Positions 1-34,435 of a stretch of 36,148 bases of DNA are shown here, piece by piece. A program made the translations under genes and the position numbers. Within the stretch, counting starts at the first letter, position 1; every line of letters begins with the position of its first letter. The notes under the pieces are model-generated. The model worked only from the letters and a program-made list of their open reading frames with translations. It did not search any database and was not told where the DNA came from. The stretch spans positions 1-36,148 of IMG/VR virus record IMGVR_UViG_3300030099_001903. One strand, 5' to 3'. The stretch is from a virus.

Positions 1-1560
1 AACAAGCCTTACAAGCTCTTGTCCTTGATTTTTATCAAAATAATAATCAGGAATATCTTCATAACCACCCATACCTAAAAGACCACCGTCTTTTTTGTAC
101 ATTTTTAATCCATCGGCAGATAATATCTTTGTTGGATCATAACCCTCAGATATTAATTTTTCATTAATTTTTTTAAGATACTCTTCGTCAGGCTCTCCTT
201 CATTTTCAGTTAGTCCAGACAACCACTTGTTAAATACTTTGTCATCTTCAATATTTTCAGGTAAAACAAGCCCTAAGTCTTTAGCTACTTCAATATATTT
301 TTCTTTCTTCTCTTGCTCGTCCATTCCGTAGTCAGGATTAAACGCTTGCCTAAGACCATAATAAACATCATAACCTCCCCCAACTAAACTGGAAATAGGC
401 CTTGTAAGCCCCGCTCCAACAAACATATTGTACACACCTTTAATTGTAGCACTAAACTTATTACCCATACTTTCTTTCATAGAAACATAGTTTCCTACTG
501 CTATTTCTAATTGGGAGTTATAAGCTTTAAACTGTTCAAAATCTGCTTGAAGTTTTTGTTTATCTACATTAAGACTTTTTTTACGAGCTAATAGATTATT
601 ATATTGAGTTACTTCTTCAGGAGTAAGCTCAGGCTTCTCCATTAACATATCAATGTTAGCTTGTGTTTCACTGACATCTTTTAAATAATCCTCATACCTT
701 TTTGATAAAGCCGCAGCATCAGCCTGAATACCTTGAATGTCAGCTTCTACAGCTTTTTTACTAAAGTATTTTTTCTTACTGGCATCATACTCGTCTGTCA
801 GCACATCCATCTCTGGAGTATCAGCTTTGTTTGTAATTAAAAACTCTTGTAATTCTTTTGCAATCTTTTCCGAACCTATACCGAAATTAGGATCTAAATT
901 TACATCTAAAGTTTCCCCTGTACTTAAGGATGTTACTTTCATACTATCACCCATACCTTGCTCCTCAAACTCAAAACCGTAGTCACCAAACAAATAATTC
1001 ATTCGAGCAACAACCTCTTCCTCTTCTCTTTCAATAAGGTCTCCTGTTATATAAGCTATAGACCTTTCAAAAGGACTGGCATCCTTTGCATAAGATATAG
1101 TTGCGTCAGGTTTGACTTCTCTGGCATCATAAACCACCTCTTCAACCACAGGGGCTTCTGGAGGTTCGGGAGGTTCAAAACTAAATTCTTGATCAGTATT
1201 AGGGAAAACAGTTCCTAATTGAGGTTGCCCCTCAGTTTCTGTTGCTTGCTGTGTTTCGGTTGTAGTTTCAGTTATTTGATTTGGAGCCAAAGATTCCGAT
1301 GATCCAGGTTCTTCCGCTTGAACTTCTGTATCTGAAACCATAACTTCCTCTGGAGAAGTGTCCAGAGAAATGTCTTTTTTTTTTAAGATGAAATCATCAA
1401 TCTTTCCTAAATCGTAACCCTCTTGTTCTGTAAAAAAATCATACAACTCTTTGCGTTTAAAGTCATCCTCTAACGCTTTGAGAAAATCTACCTCACCACC
1501 AACATCGTAACCTTCTTCTTGAAAAAATTTGTATAGCTCTAATGCTTTAGCTTCATCCAT
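1..1560 (-). CDS. Large internal virion protein candidate, partial (3' end outside window)
   Basis: An uninterrupted reading frame of 520 codons starts at ATG 1560 and is still open at base 1, so the C-terminus is missing. I checked every codon and found no stop. Residues 7-30 and 37-60 form a tandem repeat with the shared core LYxFFxExEGYDlG...DFL. Then comes a Glu/Thr/Pro-rich low-complexity linker (about residues 63-140). After that a helical, coiled-coil-prone part (about 250-350) leads to a short Gly/hydrophobic stretch near residue 365-385 (VYNMFVGAGLTRPISSLVGG). It lies 2 bp downstream of the 669-aa gene and ends the GNAT-led operon. Position beyond the tail genes and long helical content suggest an internal or ejected virion protein, as in other podovirus-like phages. 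That role is inference; no enzymatic motif was seen. Confidence 0.8.
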   Translation of the reverse strand, partial: MDEAKALELYKFFQEEGYDVGGEVDFLKALEDDFKRKELYDFFTEQEGYDLGKIDDFILKKKDISLDTSPEEVMVSDTEVQAEEPGSSESLAPNQITETTTETQQATETEGQPQLGTVFPNTDQEFSFEPPEPPEAPVVEEVVYDAREVKPDATISYAKDASPFERSIAYITGDLIEREEEEVVARMNYLFGDYGFEFEEQGMGDSMKVTSLSTGETLDVNLDPNFGIGSEKIAKELQEFLITNKADTPEMDVLTDEYDASKKKYFSKKAVEADIQGIQADAAALSKRYEDYLKDVSETQANIDMLMEKPELTPEEVTQYNNLLARKKSLNVDKQKLQADFEQFKAYNSQLEIAVGNYVSMKESMGNKFSATIKGVYNMFVGAGLTRPISSLVGGGYDVYYGLRQAFNPDYGMDEQEKKEKYIEVAKDLGLVLPENIEDDKVFNKWLSGLTENEGEPDEEYLKKINEKLISEGYDPTKILSADGLKMYKKDGGLLGMGGYEDIPDYYFDKNQGQELVRLV

Positions 1561-18544: not shown

Positions 18545-20980
18545 TTAACGAGGGTTAAATTCAGCTAAATCAAAACCATCTAAACTATCTTCGTTAGATT
18601 CAAAGTTTTGAGCAGGTAAATTTCTTTTACGCTGTTCAATCATTTTTGATTGCTGAGTATTTCCCATACTTATTCTGTCTGCTTTAGCTTTTTCTTTTTT
18701 ATCTTCTCTCATATCTATTTGAGCCTGTTCCATTCCTCGTAGCTGCATATTGTAATTAAACTCAGCATCCATTAATCTACGCTTTAGGTTAGCCTCTTCT
18801 TTTTGTTTTTCTATTTCAAAAGCTATTTCAGCTTGTTTAAGTTGGATTTTAGCTTGAAGCTCTGCTTGAGTTTTTTGCATTTCAGCTTGAGATTTTTGTT
18901 GCTGTAAAGCTTGAGCTTGCTGTGCCTGCATAGCTTGCATTTGCTGTTCTTTCTGTTGTTTTTCTGCCGCAGTTTGTTTACGCTTTACTTTTAATAATTG
19001 ATTAGCCATTTTTAAATTATTGATGGTTCTAATATCAATAGCATCCTCTAAATCAATTCCTCCGTTTTGAAGAGACATTTGAATATTCTGCTCTAACTGT
19101 TGTTTTTCTTCTTCATCAGGAGTCATCTCTATAAATATCCCAAAGTCATATAAATATAAATTTTTAATCTCTTCTAATATTCCTAAATTATATTTTCCTA
19201 TCTGCATAGCAAACTCATCTTTAAAATCCGCATACTCTAATACATCTGCAGTTCTAATAGATAAGCATTCCGCTAATCTTTGTGTAATAAATAAACTGGC
19301 ATTTAAAATATGTCTTGTTGCTACATTTGAATTTAAAGCTGCAAGTTTTTGTACCCCAACTAAAGAGTACGGATCTGGAGTAGAACCATCTCTCGCTTCA
19401 TTTAAGCCTGTTACTTGTCTTAACATATTTAAGTAATGATTATAATTTCCTATAAGCATTTGCATTTTACTTTGCCCACTACTTGATGTTAACTGACTGA
19501 TAGGCTGACGAGCATTATTAAACTCACCATCTTGAGTATAACTTCTACCAACAACACTACCTGTTTGAAAATATAATCTTAATGCATCTTCAGGATTATA
19601 AGCAGCACCAGTTCCTAAGTCTACTTCATTTAATCCATCGGCATCTATAAACACACCATCAGGAACTACTTTAGATACAACTTGTTGAATTTTTAAATGA
19701 GTAATCTGAATTAAATCAGCAAAAGGAATCATTCGTCTTACTAAAGATTCTAAAACTCCTTTATACATTCGTGGAGCACAAGCTACATAGTTAGGGTAGG
19801 CATATTGATTAGCAGAATTAGGCCTTACCATATTCTCCATCATATTCCATTTTAAAATAATATTAGTACCCATTACCATTATACCTTCATACCACACATC
19901 TATTTTTTTCTCTACTTTTTCAAACTCCCCTTCATCCATCATTTCTTGAGGGGGATTGAACTCATCTGTTTTTTCTACAGTTTTAAAACTACCCTCAGCC
20001 ATTTTTTTCTTTTTATACACAAAGCTGTTGGTTGTTTTGTAATTAAAATATAACAGTGTACAAGTGTCTCGAGAAAACATACTGTTCTCATACATAGCTG
20101 CTACATTATAGTAATCATACCACGACTGACTATATTTAGATATCTCTTCCATATCTTCATTAGTTATGTCTGGATCTATTTTAACTAACTCCGCAATAGG
20201 TAGGGTTTTAATTTCTCCCCAATAAAAACAATCTTTAAAGTAAGGATCTTCTGTATAACTGTAAACAACATTTGCTGGATCTACATATTCTACTCGTATA
20301 CCGTCACCCTGCTGAAAACTATGTTTACACATTCCTATTCCTAAAGTTGCAATATCATAGTCAACTCTTTTTCTAATATCAGCATAATGATTTTCCTCCA
20401 ACATTGTATTGATAGCAATCTCATTAGCAATCTCAATAGCAGGTTTGTAATTTAACTGCATATACAATTCCATTTCTGTGTCGCTTTGAGGAAGTGTTTT
20501 AGGATCTACTTGAAACATTTGAACTTGAAAGTCATCTTCTATTTGTTTAAATAAATCCTGTGCAACCACATTGGTTTCTACCATCTCTTGAAACTGATTT
20601 CTTTTTTCAGCAGACAGTGCGTCCATAGCTATACAGTTTACCTTAAACAATCTGTCAGACATTCCGTTTACTACTATGTCTACAAATTTTGGTATTATTG
20701 GAACTGGTGTCCAATCTAAATTTAGATAAGATAAGTCTCCATCTACGGCTAATTCGTTTTTATATTTTCCTATTGATTGTTCTCCTCGAGCGTAAAGTCT
20801 TAATCTATGAAATTCATTCCATTGATTATAAAACCTACAACGCATTCCATCTTTTCTGAACCACTCATATTGTATCGCCTGACCAACTTGTAATCCAAAC
20901 TCATCTGTAGCTTTTTGTTTATCGGTAGCAAACTGATCGGGAAACGCAGCAGAGTTTATATCTATCTTGACATCTTTCAT
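18545..20980 (-). CDS. Portal protein, 811 aa
   Basis: It overlaps the large terminase gene by 4 bp (ATGA) and has the size and segment order of the long crAss-like portals. There is a helical N-terminal wing with many aromatic residues (YEWFRKDGMRCRFYNQWNEF) and a central stem/clip region with PFADLIQITHLKIQQVVSKV. A conserved-looking helix (NHYLNMLRQVTGLNEARDGS) follows, as found in crown/wing portions of related portals. From residue 664 the C-terminus is a Gln/Ala/Lys-rich coiled coil of about 105 residues, followed by a tail ending DGFDLAEFNPR. Such an extension could reach into the capsid as a barrel. The portal forms the dodecameric DNA channel at the capsid vertex and docks the terminase. 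A TAACTTTG box lies 40 nt before the start, within the terminase gene. Confidence 0.87.
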   Translation of the reverse strand: MKDVKIDINSAAFPDQFATDKQKATDEFGLQVGQAIQYEWFRKDGMRCRFYNQWNEFHRLRLYARGEQSIGKYKNELAVDGDLSYLNLDWTPVPIIPKFVDIVVNGMSDRLFKVNCIAMDALSAEKRNQFQEMVETNVVAQDLFKQIEDDFQVQMFQVDPKTLPQSDTEMELYMQLNYKPAIEIANEIAINTMLEENHYADIRKRVDYDIATLGIGMCKHSFQQGDGIRVEYVDPANVVYSYTEDPYFKDCFYWGEIKTLPIAELVKIDPDITNEDMEEISKYSQSWYDYYNVAAMYENSMFSRDTCTLLYFNYKTTNSFVYKKKKMAEGSFKTVEKTDEFNPPQEMMDEGEFEKVEKKIDVWYEGIMVMGTNIILKWNMMENMVRPNSANQYAYPNYVACAPRMYKGVLESLVRRMIPFADLIQITHLKIQQVVSKVVPDGVFIDADGLNEVDLGTGAAYNPEDALRLYFQTGSVVGRSYTQDGEFNNARQPISQLTSSSGQSKMQMLIGNYNHYLNMLRQVTGLNEARDGSTPDPYSLVGVQKLAALNSNVATRHILNASLFITQRLAECLSIRTADVLEYADFKDEFAMQIGKYNLGILEEIKNLYLYDFGIFIEMTPDEEEKQQLEQNIQMSLQNGGIDLEDAIDIRTINNLKMANQLLKVKRKQTAAEKQQKEQQMQAMQAQQAQALQQQKSQAEMQKTQAELQAKIQLKQAEIAFEIEKQKEEANLKRRLMDAEFNYNMQLRGMEQAQIDMREDKKEKAKADRISMGNTQQSKMIEQRKRNLPAQNFESNEDSLDGFDLAEFNPR

Positions 20981-23223
20981 GTAATTATTTGACTTTTATT
21001 GCTGGTGTTATTATATCTTGCAAAGTTAATACTTATTTTTGATTTTTGTTTAGATGGTGTGTATAAGTGTTTTTGGTTAGCCATAATAGCTAAACCAGAA
21101 CTTATAGCAGCATCAAACTTAGTTCTATTGGTTATATCAAACTTAGCCCAATCCTCTAAAGTTTTTCCGAAATACATTGTTCCCATATCCCCCGCATCCC
21201 TATATGTTCCTTCAAAATCTATTCCTACATATTTCTCAATATAAGACTCTATCGCTGAAGCATGAGATTGCTTTACATCTTCCGAAGTATTAGGTATGCC
21301 TCCAAGTTCTCGTTCTGTTTTAGATAATTTATTGTAGGTTTTGTCGGGCCTATTCATACTAAACCCTCTATAACCTCTGTTTTTAAAATGATACAAAAGA
21401 CGAGGTTTATTGTTTTCACATAAAATAGGCATACCATAAAATATGCAGGCCATCAAAACCTCTTCAAAAAATATTTCTGCAGTTTGAGGTCTGGCTATAT
21501 ATTCTAAAAAAAACTCATTACTCGGAGCTTCTTCCATATTAAACTTAGTCAAGCCATGTAAAGCGCCATTAGATCCTTTACCTACAACCACTCCTGAAAT
21601 ATCATAAGAGTCACAACCAAAAGAACCAATATGCTCGTTACCTGGTTTCTTTAATCCTCTTTCTATTATTATATTGTTTTGTAAATGAGGAGGTGGTGTC
21701 CAACTTACTAAAAATCTACCTCTATTATGAGGGTTCCATATAACCTTAGAATCTTTGACTCCATTCTCCCATGAGAAAGATCCTCGTGTTAAATGATGTG
21801 TCAGAATTAGAGAATCATTATAATCTATTTGCTGATAAATTTTAGTTAAGTTAAATATTGACTGTTTACTTTCATCTCTAAAAGCATGTGACTCTGTTCT
21901 TGGAAACTGTCTGTAAAACTCATTTAAAGCATCAGGATCATGAGATAAAGAGTCTACCTCATTTTCCCAGTAGTCAATTGCACCCACTGTAATATCCTCT
22001 CCATCTATTCCTATTATTGGTTTTTCTGGAGATCTAAAAACTGGCATACCATATATATCTATATATCCTTCAAAATTCCACTCCATAGGAACAAACAAGC
22101 AATATAATCCTGATTTTGTTTGACCGTTAGCGTTTCTTTTTTCAGGCATAGAATCTTCATATAAAGATTTAAAATTATTACCACCTTTATCTAAAGCATT
22201 TGATGTGCTTCCCATCATACATTTTCCAATAATTTTACTACCTAACCTTAAGCAAGTTTTAGTTACTCGCCAGTTATTTAATATATTATCTGGCTTTTCC
22301 CATTTACCACTTTCGTCATGTAAAAGCAGTTGCAACTTCTCACCATCATAACTATTATCTCCTGTGTTTTTCCAATCAATAGTAGTGTCTAACCCTTCCA
22401 GCTCTTCATCTGCTAAGGTGTGCATGTTTTTTTTAGTAATCTTAGAGGCAGGAACTCTGTAAGCCAATTCTGTTTTAGGCTTATCCATACCATCTTGAAT
22501 CGGTTTAAAGAAAAAAGGATAATTGTTAGATATAGGAACAACCTTATCTGTAAACATTTTTTTTGCATCCGATCCTGTTTTAGAAAGTATTCCAACTCGA
22601 GCATCCTTAGTTATGGTTGCCTGATTAACCCCTTCACAAGAACTCATAAAAGAAAAACCTGAACGCCTAATTTTTAAATAGCACATTCCAAAGCTTCGTT
22701 TATCAGCCTTACACGCTTCCCAAAAAATATAAAATATTCTGTTGGCTTCTCGGTAATCTGGATTGCCTACATCTATCTTAGTCCACTGTAAGTACATATA
22801 ATGTGTGCCAGTAATATATGTAGGGCTTCCGTTATTCATAAACCAATAACCTTGCTCTCTTCTATCAAACTCCTCTTCTATATAATCAACCCATTTAGAC
22901 TTAAAGGTATCGGGCGTTTCGTGCCATTGAAATATAGATTTAATTTTGTTAAGCTCTTTTGATATAGGTATCGCTTCCCAATATTGATCTTCTTTTTTCA
23001 AAGATCGTGAATAAACTTTTTTAGGCTGAGCTGGTAATCCTATTCTTAATTTGTTTATTTCTATTACCTTACCCAGAGTTCCGTTACGAGATATAACAAC
23101 TATATCGTATTTTTCATTATAACCATAGAGCCAAGTCCTTGCCCTGTTCTTATTAGACAATACATTTTTGGGTATTAAATTATTTACAACCCTATATAAG
23201 CTATTTTGATCTTGACTCTGCAA
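20977..23223 (-). CDS. terL: Terminase large subunit, 748 aa
   Basis: The motor ATPase-nuclease that packages DNA into the prohead. A deviant Walker A region is seen at residues 183-195 (LKIRRSGFSFMSS) and a Walker B with catalytic Glu at 299-304 (LLLHDE, D303/E304). The sensor-like KCMMGSTSN follows at 334-342. The C-terminal RNase H-like nuclease shows candidate metal ligands D538 (FGCDSYD), E603 (LCENN) and D704 (TKFDAAISSG). The overall layout matches crAss-like/marine Bacteroidetes terminases. The only usable start in the open frame is TTG 23223: the frame closes at 23256 upstream and no in-frame ATG occurs before about residue 129. It overlaps the preceding 95-aa gene by 23 nt and the portal start by 4 nt. 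Confidence 0.92.
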   Translation of the reverse strand: MQSQDQNSLYRVVNNLIPKNVLSNKNRARTWLYGYNEKYDIVVISRNGTLGKVIEINKLRIGLPAQPKKVYSRSLKKEDQYWEAIPISKELNKIKSIFQWHETPDTFKSKWVDYIEEEFDRREQGYWFMNNGSPTYITGTHYMYLQWTKIDVGNPDYREANRIFYIFWEACKADKRSFGMCYLKIRRSGFSFMSSCEGVNQATITKDARVGILSKTGSDAKKMFTDKVVPISNNYPFFFKPIQDGMDKPKTELAYRVPASKITKKNMHTLADEELEGLDTTIDWKNTGDNSYDGEKLQLLLHDESGKWEKPDNILNNWRVTKTCLRLGSKIIGKCMMGSTSNALDKGGNNFKSLYEDSMPEKRNANGQTKSGLYCLFVPMEWNFEGYIDIYGMPVFRSPEKPIIGIDGEDITVGAIDYWENEVDSLSHDPDALNEFYRQFPRTESHAFRDESKQSIFNLTKIYQQIDYNDSLILTHHLTRGSFSWENGVKDSKVIWNPHNRGRFLVSWTPPPHLQNNIIIERGLKKPGNEHIGSFGCDSYDISGVVVGKGSNGALHGLTKFNMEEAPSNEFFLEYIARPQTAEIFFEEVLMACIFYGMPILCENNKPRLLYHFKNRGYRGFSMNRPDKTYNKLSKTERELGGIPNTSEDVKQSHASAIESYIEKYVGIDFEGTYRDAGDMGTMYFGKTLEDWAKFDITNRTKFDAAISSGLAIMANQKHLYTPSKQKSKISINFARYNNTSNKSQIIT
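21018..21039. repeat. 22-bp exact repeat, copy 2 (promoter of portal gene, inside terL)
   Basis: The same 22 bases as at 18504-18525, here within the last codons of the terminase gene. Its placement inside coding sequence makes an exact match notable. Confidence 0.9.
21021..21028 (-). promoter_or_regulatory. Bacteroidetes-type promoter -7 box for portal gene
   Basis: TAACTTTG on the minus strand, 40 nt before the portal ATG, embedded in the terminase C-terminal codons and part of the 22-bp exact repeat. Confidence 0.6.
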
Positions 23224-23666: not shown

Positions 23667-24242
23667 TTAATTTTTAAATTTATAAAATATTACATACACC
23701 TGCCTTCCTTCCTTCCAAGACTGATTAGGATATTTACTATGAAAGTAATTAGCAGGGTAAGACACCAATCTGTTCTGCTCATAACCCGAAACAGAAACTA
23801 ATCTCCACATGTCCAAGTTTTCTGAATCTACTCGTATAAGTCTATCATACTCTTCGTCATCAATATGTTGAGGAAGATACGATCCGTAAATTTCATGCTC
23901 CCAGAAAGCGGTTCCGTGTAAAGATTCCAGCTCTCTGGGTGACATATATAAAACTGCCGCCCTATCTGGCTGTTGTCCTTTTATTTTTAAATCAGAATGT
24001 ATACGCCAATTATTATCTAAAACATCAGTTGATACTCTAAAAAAACTTAATATGTTTTCTACTGGACGAGCTTCAAGTATAGCTAATTTTCTCAATACAT
24101 ATTGATCAAAAATATCAGGAGACTCTTGTATATAAAAATTTTTTTCACCTACAGTGTGTTTAATAAACTCTCCTTTTTCTAAATAGTTGCAGGCAATTTT
24201 AAATAAATCATCGCTAATAAAATTATCTTGAGTATAAATCAT
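23667..24242 (-). CDS. 2-oxoglutarate/Fe(II)-dependent oxygenase-like protein, 191 aa
   Basis: The double-stranded beta-helix signature of 2OG/Fe(II) oxygenases is visible. HxD iron ligands H82-S-D84 lie in NNWRIHSDLKIKG. The strand AAVLYMSP and a Gly-Thr-Ala-Phe-Trp segment (HGTAFWEHEIYG) follow. The distal His is H168 in SYPANYFHSKYP, and a 2OG-binding Arg candidate is R180 in EGRQVYVIFYK. The layout resembles the prolyl-hydroxylase-like group common in marine phages (DUF6445-like is my best recollection). The substrate is not known; protein or nucleobase hydroxylation are both possible. It overlaps the tandem GroES-like gene by 4 bp (ATGA) and sits in the block leading into the terminase genes. 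Confidence 0.85.
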   Translation of the reverse strand: MIYTQDNFISDDLFKIACNYLEKGEFIKHTVGEKNFYIQESPDIFDQYVLRKLAILEARPVENILSFFRVSTDVLDNNWRIHSDLKIKGQQPDRAAVLYMSPRELESLHGTAFWEHEIYGSYLPQHIDDEEYDRLIRVDSENLDMWRLVSVSGYEQNRLVSYPANYFHSKYPNQSWKEGRQVYVIFYKFKN

Positions 24243-24802
24243 ACAATCATCGTTATATTGTTAGTAAACATTCTGTATAATTTTTCTTCATCCACTATAA
24301 ACGGATATTCGCTTTCAGGTTGAAAAGATATTTTATCACCTTCTTTTACGCCTAAATCTAAAAGCTCTTGATTGATATATTTAATAGTGCCATATAAAGG
24401 TTCCTCGTTCCCTCCTTTAAATATATAAGAGTCCTCTAAACCTATAGGTTTTATAAAACAATACTTACCATAAGCTTTCCACTTGTTGTTTTGTTTGTAA
24501 AGAAAAAACTGTTCGTGATCTACTAAAAACAAATCGTCTTTTAGAAAACTTCTTCCGCTTTTTTCTCTCCCATACATGTCGTAATAAAACTTAAAAACAT
24601 TATGATGAACCAACAAGGTGTCGCCTTCTTTTACTGGGCCCTTGTAGTTTATAGGTAAAGCTATTACTTTTGCAAGTCTATTAGAAGCAATATGATCTTC
24701 TTTGGAGACGCTGGTAATTAATTCTGTATTTCCTATTTTTTTTATATTATCGTACCTTCTTTTGTATAAGGGTTCAACGATAAAGTTATACGGAGACCGC
24801 AT
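24239..24802 (-). CDS. Tandem GroES-fold protein, candidate second co-chaperonin, 187 aa
   Basis: Both halves read like a GroES beta barrel. In the first (about 5-102), YNFIVEPL begins as GroES does. A Ser/Lys-rich loop at 22-40 (KKIGNTELITSVSKEDHIAS) sits where the GroES mobile loop binds GroEL, with ELIT in place of the IVL tripeptide. RLAKVIALP, VKEGDTLLVHH and FLVDHEQFFLYK then match GroES strands. The second half (113-187) repeats the pattern: YCFIKPI, YGTIKYIN, LGVKEGDKISFQPES, then DEEKLYRMFTNNITMIV. It has only a short loop. T4 uses a diverged co-chaperonin (gp31) for its capsid; this fused form could act likewise. Function is inference; the fold call is fairly firm. It overlaps its two neighbours by 1 and 4 bp. 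Confidence 0.72.
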   Translation of the reverse strand: MRSPYNFIVEPLYKRRYDNIKKIGNTELITSVSKEDHIASNRLAKVIALPINYKGPVKEGDTLLVHHNVFKFYYDMYGREKSGRSFLKDDLFLVDHEQFFLYKQNNKWKAYGKYCFIKPIGLEDSYIFKGGNEEPLYGTIKYINQELLDLGVKEGDKISFQPESEYPFIVDEEKLYRMFTNNITMIV

Positions 24803-25020
24803 TAAAAATTAATGTTAAATTCTAAAGATACAGGAAGAGTATTTAAAAATTCCTTCCATAAATATATCTCGTCTGATCTTTGTATCCAAATTCTGTAAGA
24901 AGATTCCGTGGCTTGAATTAAGTGAATAACATGTGATCCGCCTAATACTTCTTGCCCCACGATGTAGTGCATGGCACCAGACTTGTAGTCCGCACCAATT
25001 GATATTTTTCTAATGTCCAT
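24802..25020 (-). CDS. Conserved-looking small protein, 72 aa
   Basis: It starts MDIRKISIGADYKSGAMHYI and continues with alternating strands (VGQEVLGGSHVIHLI, YRIWIQRSDEIYLWKEF) to end PVSLEFNINF. I recall closely similar short proteins in other marine phages, without an assigned function. No catalytic residues or membrane span are visible. Its last base overlaps the start of the tandem GroES-like gene, and it follows the tail-fibre gene by 16 bp, so it is probably translated from the same message as both. Confidence 0.75.
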   Translation of the reverse strand: MDIRKISIGADYKSGAMHYIVGQEVLGGSHVIHLIQATESSYRIWIQRSDEIYLWKEFLNTLPVSLEFNINF

Positions 25021-33687: not shown

Positions 33688-33711
33688 TAATTTTTTAATT
33701 TATTACTTTTG
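33681..33711 (+). promoter_or_regulatory. Rightward Bacteroidetes-type promoter for the winged-helix gene
   Basis: On the plus strand, TTG (33681-33683) and TACTTTTG (33704-33711) stand 20 bp apart, matching the TTG-N17-23-TAnnTTTG arrangement. The ATG at 33739 is 27 nt further on. It is one of only two promoters here with both elements. Confidence 0.65.
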
Positions 33712-33717
33712 TTCTTG

Positions 33718-33725
33718 CAAAGATA
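33718..33725 (-). promoter_or_regulatory. Leftward Bacteroidetes-type -7 box, face to face with the rightward promoter
   Basis: TATCTTTG on the minus strand, 30 nt before ATG 33687. It lies 6 bp from the rightward -7 box at 33704-33711, so the two promoters face and overlap each other. Confidence 0.65.
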
Positions 33726-33728
33726 CAA

Positions 33729-33740
33729 ATTAAATTTAAT
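33729..33740. promoter_or_regulatory. 12-bp palindrome at the start of the winged-helix gene
   Basis: ATTAAATTTAAT is a perfect palindrome that touches the ATG of the only rightward gene and lies just inside both divergent promoters. It could be an operator for that gene's product. In DNA this AT-rich a palindrome of this length may be chance. Confidence 0.3.
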
Positions 33741-34212
33741 GCCTAATAAAATCAGAAAGAACTACGATAGAGTTCAACCTTCGCATGACTACATGAAGTA
33801 TTGGCGGGTGATAAAGTATTGGGCTAAAGCCAAATACAAAGTCGGAACTCCCGATATAGAAATGATGTTTTTCTTATATAGCGAACATATATTTAACAAA
33901 ACAAAGTTTAAAGAGTTTGAAGAGTGCATGTCTTGGGATGAACCCAGATTTCATAGGCTCTTAAAAGAAGGTTGGATTAGAGTATGGAGGAAAAGACAAG
34001 GAAATGAAACTACTCTTTACGAACTCTCGTACAAAGGCAAACGCATGATCAATACTCTGTATAAAAAATTAAACGGAGAAGAGATTTCTGAAAGCCCTCA
34101 ATACAATCCTTTATTTAGACACGACTCATCTTATACAGATAAGATATATAGAAATATGATTATAGAGTTAAATAAGTTTATAAAACAACAACGACATCCC
34201 TCTCCAGAATAA
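33739..34212 (+). CDS. Winged-helix (MarR-like) DNA-binding protein, 157 aa
   Basis: The only plus-strand gene. A winged-helix layout is visible. A helix at 38-51 (PDIEMMFFLYSEHIF) is followed by a recognition-helix candidate at 66-78 (SWDEPRFHRLLKEGW) and a wing hairpin at 80-98 (VWRKRQGNETTLYELS). Helix YKGKRMINTLYKKLNGE then ends the domain, as in MarR-family proteins. The remaining ~40 residues are polar and helical (NMIIELNKFIKQQ). It is likely a transcription regulator of the phage, possibly of its own divergent promoter region. I chose ATG 33739 over an upstream in-frame TTG because it fits the promoter. Its last 35 bp overlap the convergent groES gene. Confidence 0.82.
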   Translation: MPNKIRKNYDRVQPSHDYMKYWRVIKYWAKAKYKVGTPDIEMMFFLYSEHIFNKTKFKEFEECMSWDEPRFHRLLKEGWIRVWRKRQGNETTLYELSYKGKRMINTLYKKLNGEEISESPQYNPLFRHDSSYTDKIYRNMIIELNKFIKQQRHPSPE

Positions 34213-34435
34213 CCGTATAAGGATTGTCATTGATTAACATTTCATGTCCTGAAGCTTTATCGTAATAAATAATATCTCCTTCTTTTATTACAGACACATC
34301 TGTTCCTTGCTTAACAACCTCAGCCTTTTTGTATCGGAATCCTGAAGCGTCTTGAGCAGAAAGCAGTAAACCTGATTTAGTTTTTAACTCTTCGTCTATT
34401 TTTTTTATTACTATGTATTTCCCTATTGGTTTCAT
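34178..34435 (-). CDS. groES: GroES co-chaperonin, 85 aa
   Basis: A full but short GroES (bacterial forms are about 95-97 aa). It opens MKPIGKYIVIKKIDEELKTK, followed by the mobile loop with SGLLLSAQDASG, where GLLL stands for the GroEL-binding GIVL motif. RYKKAEVVKQG, VIKEGDIIYYDK and the closing strand YTVILERDVVVVL follow. It would cap the phage GroEL, or the host's, during folding of phage proteins. It lies 65 bp downstream of groEL in a groEL-groES order, reverse of most bacteria. The end overlaps the convergent winged-helix gene by 35 bp. Confidence 0.9.
   Translation of the reverse strand: MKPIGKYIVIKKIDEELKTKSGLLLSAQDASGFRYKKAEVVKQGTDVSVIKEGDIIYYDKASGHEMLINDNPYTVILERDVVVVL

Follow-up and report, generated by a model that had tools for sequence, protein, structure and literature searches.

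A 187-residue tandem GroES-like protein, here called DBL, is encoded in the window, i.e., the whole 36-kb virus record that was analyzed. It is predicted, with strong support, to comprise two GroES barrels in one chain, and it is probably a single-chain double co-chaperonin of the Cpn20 type that caps GroEL and helps to fold virion proteins. It would fill two adjacent positions in the cap closing the GroEL ring, with the phage's own GroEL as partner where one is encoded and that of the host where the phage has none. As a putative late co-chaperonin encoded among morphogenesis genes, it may assist virion proteins in the way T4 gp31 assists the T4 capsid protein, and it is this position, by analogy with gp31, that suggests virion proteins as its substrates. 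A fold match alone does not show function; binding to GroEL, late expression, oligomeric state and substrate are what we infer.

The DBL gene and its two predicted barrels

DBL is conserved at full length, with 67-95% identity in the best 80 of 345 related viral stretches, and has coupling overlaps with both neighbors, TAATG at its start with the upstream 72-aa gene and ATGA at its end with the downstream gene, and it is thus a real gene (Table 1). A chance overlap or a wrong strand assignment was ruled out by the intact reading frame on the minus strand, the many stops on the plus strand across the same interval and the conservation of the homologues.

Table 1. Position of DBL, its parts and the associated genes in the window.
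Feature	Coordinates	Strand	Evidence
DBL, tandem GroES-like co-chaperonin, 187 aa	24239..24802	-	ORF; PHROG 13932; AlphaFold2 model and fold matches
N-terminal GroES-like barrel (predicted), residues 1-106	24485..24802	-	Separate model; structural matches; hhalign shuffles
Mobile-loop-like segment of the N-half, residues 12-41	24680..24769	-	Low pLDDT; loop length in all lineages
C-terminal GroES-like barrel (predicted), residues 107-187	24242..24484	-	GroES Z; hhalign; weak Pfam Cpn10
Shortened loop of the C-half, residues 119-137	24392..24448	-	Length between anchors; variability
Conserved partner gene, 72 aa, no family match	24802..25020	-	TAATG overlap with DBL
Gene downstream of DBL, 191 aa	23667..24242	-	PHROG 1644 'minor coat protein'; weak DUF6445; ATGA overlap
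Terminase large subunit (TerL)	20977..23223	-	PHROG 6681, E 2.1e-176
Single-domain phage GroES, 85 aa, loop KTKSGLLLSAQ	34178..34435	-	Pfam Cpn10, E 3.4e-11 (over cut-off); PHROG 3188
Phage GroEL, 526 aa	34501..36081	-	Pfam Cpn60, E 5.6e-60; PHROG 5725

Residues 1-184 match PHROG 13932, 'co-chaperonin GroES' (E 1.9e-22). The AlphaFold2 model, built with 37 family members (pLDDT 87.2, pTM 0.80), found its best solved match in 7ekq chain R (Foldseek E 3.8e-5), named 'Cpn20 co-chaperonin subunit' in the PDB sequence search; the alignment covers both halves (1..187 vs. 11..193; VIA Z 10.4, rmsd 4.3, 157 residues), so that DBL is predicted to carry the two head-to-tail GroES domains typical of a Cpn20-type tandem. 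In 7ekq the matched Cpn20 sits on Chlamydomonas ClpP, where a CPN11/20/23 heterotetramer has been seen (PMC8889267), and this would favor a role of DBL in capping another ring machine, e.g., host ClpP, and modulating proteolysis. We regard such a role as highly improbable, since the match reflects the common tandem architecture, a search of DBL for features specific to ClpP had no result, and most of these phages encode GroEL.

The C-half of the model aligns with GroES chains at Z 8.5-9.4 over 74-79 residues, as expected of a GroES barrel. Because the C-half could have filled the match list of the full model, the N-half was also predicted alone (pLDDT 83.6). All of its top 16 structural matches are co-chaperonins (GroES, Cpn10, T4 gp31 and Cpn20; Z 5.9-7.4), the best being of GroES type at Z 7.0-7.4, modest values that are nevertheless clear of the GroES-like domains of alcohol dehydrogenases, which rank below (Z 5.0 or less). 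Foldseek alone gave no match below E 0.001 for the N-half model. By our reading of the alignment, neither half has a roof-hairpin insert. A viral protein outside the window, the unnamed 304-aa BFVD entry A0A516L046, likewise matches DBL in fold (TM 0.75 by query length) and has space for a further domain.

At the sequence level, the C-half aligned with the phage short GroES family by hhalign at E 1.6e-9, and its profile-profile score was 50.7 as compared to 20.5 for the best of 200 column shuffles; the N-half scored 26.9 against a best shuffle of 23.7, with an hhalign probability of 45%. Pfam Cpn10 (PF00166) recognized the C-half only and missed the cut-off (E 0.018; 15.5 vs. 21.1 bits), which the homologues in Pervagoviridae and Pachyviridae exceed. 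No Pfam match was obtained for the N-half and no NCBIfam match for DBL, while a PDB search with the single sequence of DBL returned nothing, GroES being reached only by profile. An internal duplication, sought by comparing the N-half with the C-half, left no detectable similarity (3/200 shuffles reached the score).

The faint signals of the N-half, namely the missing Pfam match, the hhalign probability and the Foldseek result, could indicate that the C-half alone is a genuine Cpn10 domain and the N-half an unrelated beta barrel. This is very unlikely: the profile score of the N-half beats 200/200 shuffles, its separate model places co-chaperonins above dehydrogenase domains throughout the top 16 matches, and the whole chain matches Cpn20. 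The GroES-like nature of both halves, claimed earlier in a sequence-only reading of this DNA, is thus borne out by the full-chain Cpn20 match, by the GroES matches of each half and by the profile-profile comparison. Two of the checks which that reading had proposed were run: monomer prediction with a fold search of each half yielded a predicted GroES barrel in both, and in the profile search both halves matched the phage GroES family, but Pfam Cpn10 reached only the C-half, below its cut-off. Neither half can be said to lack the GroES barrel, because structural matches and shuffle-tested profiles back both.

Mobile loops and the accompanying chaperonin genes

The N-half loop includes the least confident part of the model (pLDDT 58 at residues 31-40) and measures about 34 residues (range 31-35) between matched anchors in all lineages. 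In window-, elemo- and Panino-like proteins the C-half loop is mostly 19-21 residues long (range 10-23), and in the window clade no other region varies as much (2.12 bits vs. 1.63 for the N-loop). The Pervagoviridae and Pachyviridae members of PHROG 13932 differ from DBL in having a GroES-like loop also in the C-half, 28-30 residues long and with the motifs GSIIVPNSGE and SLIYIPEDNKEK. Where the N-loop of elemo phages has its hydrophobic tripeptide (GLILN), the window sequence reads NTELITS. GroES-like mobile loops in both domains, a trait of Cpn20, are not found in the window lineage, whose C loop is degenerate; probably only the N-terminal domain retains a loop of the GroEL-binding type, which would contact GroEL. 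The contrast noticed previously, a first half with a loop and a second half with almost none, is real as judged by loop lengths and pLDDT, but the asymmetry is lineage-specific, because Pervagoviridae and Pachyviridae have GroES-like loops in both halves.

A groEL gene and a normal groES had also been reported about 10 kb from DBL, and both are present (Table 1). The phage GroEL retains D52, D87 and D398 with respect to E. coli, and on its GroES-contact face L234 is replaced by E and V263/V264 by A; since the contact face diverged while the three aspartates were kept, the protein is consistent with dedicated phage co-chaperonins. It lacks the GGM tail that E. coli GroEL has at its C terminus. 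Tail-to-tail with the 3' end of groES overlaps a plus-strand ORF of 167 aa (33709-34212) with no clear family match; in the relative MW202828 the ORF at the matching position is annotated 'repressor protein'.

Among the DBL-bearing records of a first set, single-domain GroES was found in 30/30 and GroEL in 25/30; the five with no detectable GroEL (four Pachyviridae and one Pervagoviridae-like) all have GroES. A second set of 18 records had GroEL in 15, each accompanied by GroES (12 by Pfam, 3 by the family HMM), and the remaining three records, of 30-38 kb, had neither; as the completeness of DBL-bearing records is mostly uncertified, such absences are weak evidence. GroES first seemed to be missing in three Pervagoviridae-like records, a result rejected as a matter of Pfam sensitivity, since a GroES-sized ORF near each GroEL matched the phage GroES HMM, which is family-specific and includes the GroES of phi38:1. 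Every sufficiently complete DBL-bearing record that was checked has single-domain GroES, and most have GroEL. Three chaperonin parts in one phage, previously taken to be unusual, are therefore the norm in this lineage. GroEL homologues have been described in 36 genomes of group 2 marine Bacteroidetes phages, the group of phi38:1 (Nishimura et al., PMC5332604). The Pachyviridae record NC_021789.1 and its kin combine a single-domain with a double GroES and show no detectable GroEL; in Pachyviridae of this kind both co-chaperonins presumably use the GroEL of the host.

Comparison with known co-chaperonins and possible assembly of a cap

Tandem co-chaperonins have been described in plastids and apicoplasts. 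Like DBL, Cpn20 (Cpn21, CrCpn20/23) of chloroplasts and apicoplasts has two head-to-tail GroES-like domains within about 190 residues and is accompanied by single-domain Cpn10 and a GroEL-type chaperonin. DBL differs in being a Bacteroidetes-phage gene that lies in a morphogenesis cluster and, in the window lineage, has a shortened C-half loop. The two share 16% identity over the structural alignment, a value compatible with convergence as well as with very ancient descent. Bacterial GroES (Cpn10, PF00166) resembles DBL in the barrel of each half and in the mobile-loop-like segment of the N-half, while DBL has two domains per chain, a Pfam score below the cut-off and no roof-hairpin insert. 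T4 gp31 is a phage co-chaperonin of GroES fold as well (N-half Z 6.8, C-half Z 7.2), with a virion-folding role like that proposed for DBL; unlike DBL, it is a single-domain heptamer, which replaces host GroES. T4 is not known to encode a GroEL.

A chain with an even number of domains mismatches a seven-fold ring, and this counts against the proposed co-chaperonin. The strict alternation of loop-bearing and loopless subunits suggested by the sequence-only reading fails for the same reason, as two-domain chains alone cannot close a seven-membered ring; closure requires either an added single-domain GroES (3 x 2 + 1 = 7) or an even-numbered cap, and even-numbered co-chaperonin caps can function (PMC5780408). 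Since two-domain chains cannot fill seven places and GroES is always present, a 3 x 2 + 1 cap is suggested, though not shown. Three DBL chains and one phage GroES would then form a seven-domain lid like that of chloroplast Cpn10/Cpn20, a special case of the double co-chaperonin that we put forward only tentatively. The single GroES would solve the symmetry mismatch, it accompanies DBL in all 30 records of the first set (including the five lacking detectable GroEL) and in each of the 15 second-set records that carry GroEL, and in chloroplasts the hetero-oligomers of Cpn20 and Cpn10 are functional, those of Chlamydomonas being obligatory (PMC4242682, PMC5780408). However, the same co-occurrence is also expected if DBL and GroES serve GroEL separately, their genes are about 10 kb apart, and some Cpn20 homo-oligomers as well as six- and eight-domain concatamers work alone (PMC5780408).

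A further step, doubtful and somewhat less probable than the mixed ring as such, is that phages evolved the mixed cap separately from plastids, with DBL and one GroES arranged so that, along most of the ring, each domain with a loop is followed by one without. If true, this would represent an asymmetric, phage-specific lid of the folding chamber for virion proteins, usable with host GroEL where the phage lost its own. A widespread phage tandem co-chaperonin, always found with a single-domain GroES, would offer a second setting for the plastid/apicoplast architecture, and a small system for studying the number of mobile loops required in a GroEL cap and the way in which two-domain chains are accommodated in a seven-fold ring.

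Distribution and genomic setting

Pattern scans of IMG/VR, confirmed by tblastn, gave the 345 stretches close to DBL, and a broader profile retrieved at least 592 related ones. Relatives in isolated phages occur in Flavobacterium elemo phages, Maribacter phage Panino and Cellulophaga phages of the Pervagoviridae and Pachyviridae, where they are annotated 'co-chaperonin GroES' or 'chaperonin cpn10' (phi38:1 and phi19:3 included); 'chaperonin cpn10' has been listed among the core proteins of Pervagoviridae (Bartlau et al., PMC8776804). The members of PHROG 13932 (Cellulophaga phi38:1 and phi19:3, elemo phages, Panino) belong to the same family as DBL, are full-length and lie upstream of TerL, and their records bear a plain GroES label, with the tandem architecture and the loop asymmetry unmentioned in the annotations. 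The family is thus already filed as GroES, while the tandem form, the lineage-dependent loops and the constant pairing with GroES appear undescribed; our literature search on tandem phage GroES, itself incomplete, found only plastid and apicoplast cases, and an earlier description is possible. The present findings would improve the annotation of PHROG 13932.

In divergent phage groups DBL lies a short way upstream of TerL and portal, mostly preceded by the same 72-aa gene; of the 113 DBL loci in a second batch, 106 contained TerL and 90 the 72-aa gene. Marine Bacteroidetes phages of this family routinely carry DBL next to their DNA-packaging genes. The location next to fibre and terminase genes rather than groEL, already pointed out for the window, was confirmed, a large fibre-like gene preceding DBL.

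The place of DBL beside TerL and portal is fixed, whereas the GroEL/GroES genes move or disappear, Pachyviridae retain DBL without GroEL and the C-half loop has been lost, all of which would suit a protein outside the chaperonin cycle, i.e., a packaging or head/tail assembly factor or a virion part, such as a ring adaptor near TerL. We consider this unlikely, since the N-half loop is kept in all lineages and Pervagoviridae and Pachyviridae retain GroES-like loops, the single GroES is always retained as well, and in phi38:1 and phi19:3 the neighbors are often labelled structural (by similarity to phi18:1/phi8:3 proteins) and the GroES genes are not. The double co-chaperonin, if correct, would mean that an abundant group of marine Bacteroidetes phages has a dedicated pathway for folding its virion proteins.

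A search of bacterial genomes with the DBL sequence alone returned no relative. A closer alignment search of them returned 17, all in metagenome-assembled genomes, and phage packaging genes adjoin DBL in the 7/7 that were examined, so that nothing points to a cellular form of DBL. A DBL-TerL-portal phage stretch also occurs inside a metagenome 'chromosome' labelled Candidatus Aenigmatarchaeota (CP070801.1 863639-884193), and runs of N in its flanks suggest a chimeric scaffold.

As for the immediate neighbors, the 72-aa protein is the steadiest companion of DBL across divergent phages, while in some relatives no homologue of the 191-aa protein adjoins DBL. The latter carries an HxD...H...R pattern (HSD, FHS, GRQVYVIFY) and an LHGTAFWEH motif; the pattern, together with the weak DUF6445 match, resembles a 2-oxoglutarate/Fe(II) dioxygenase.
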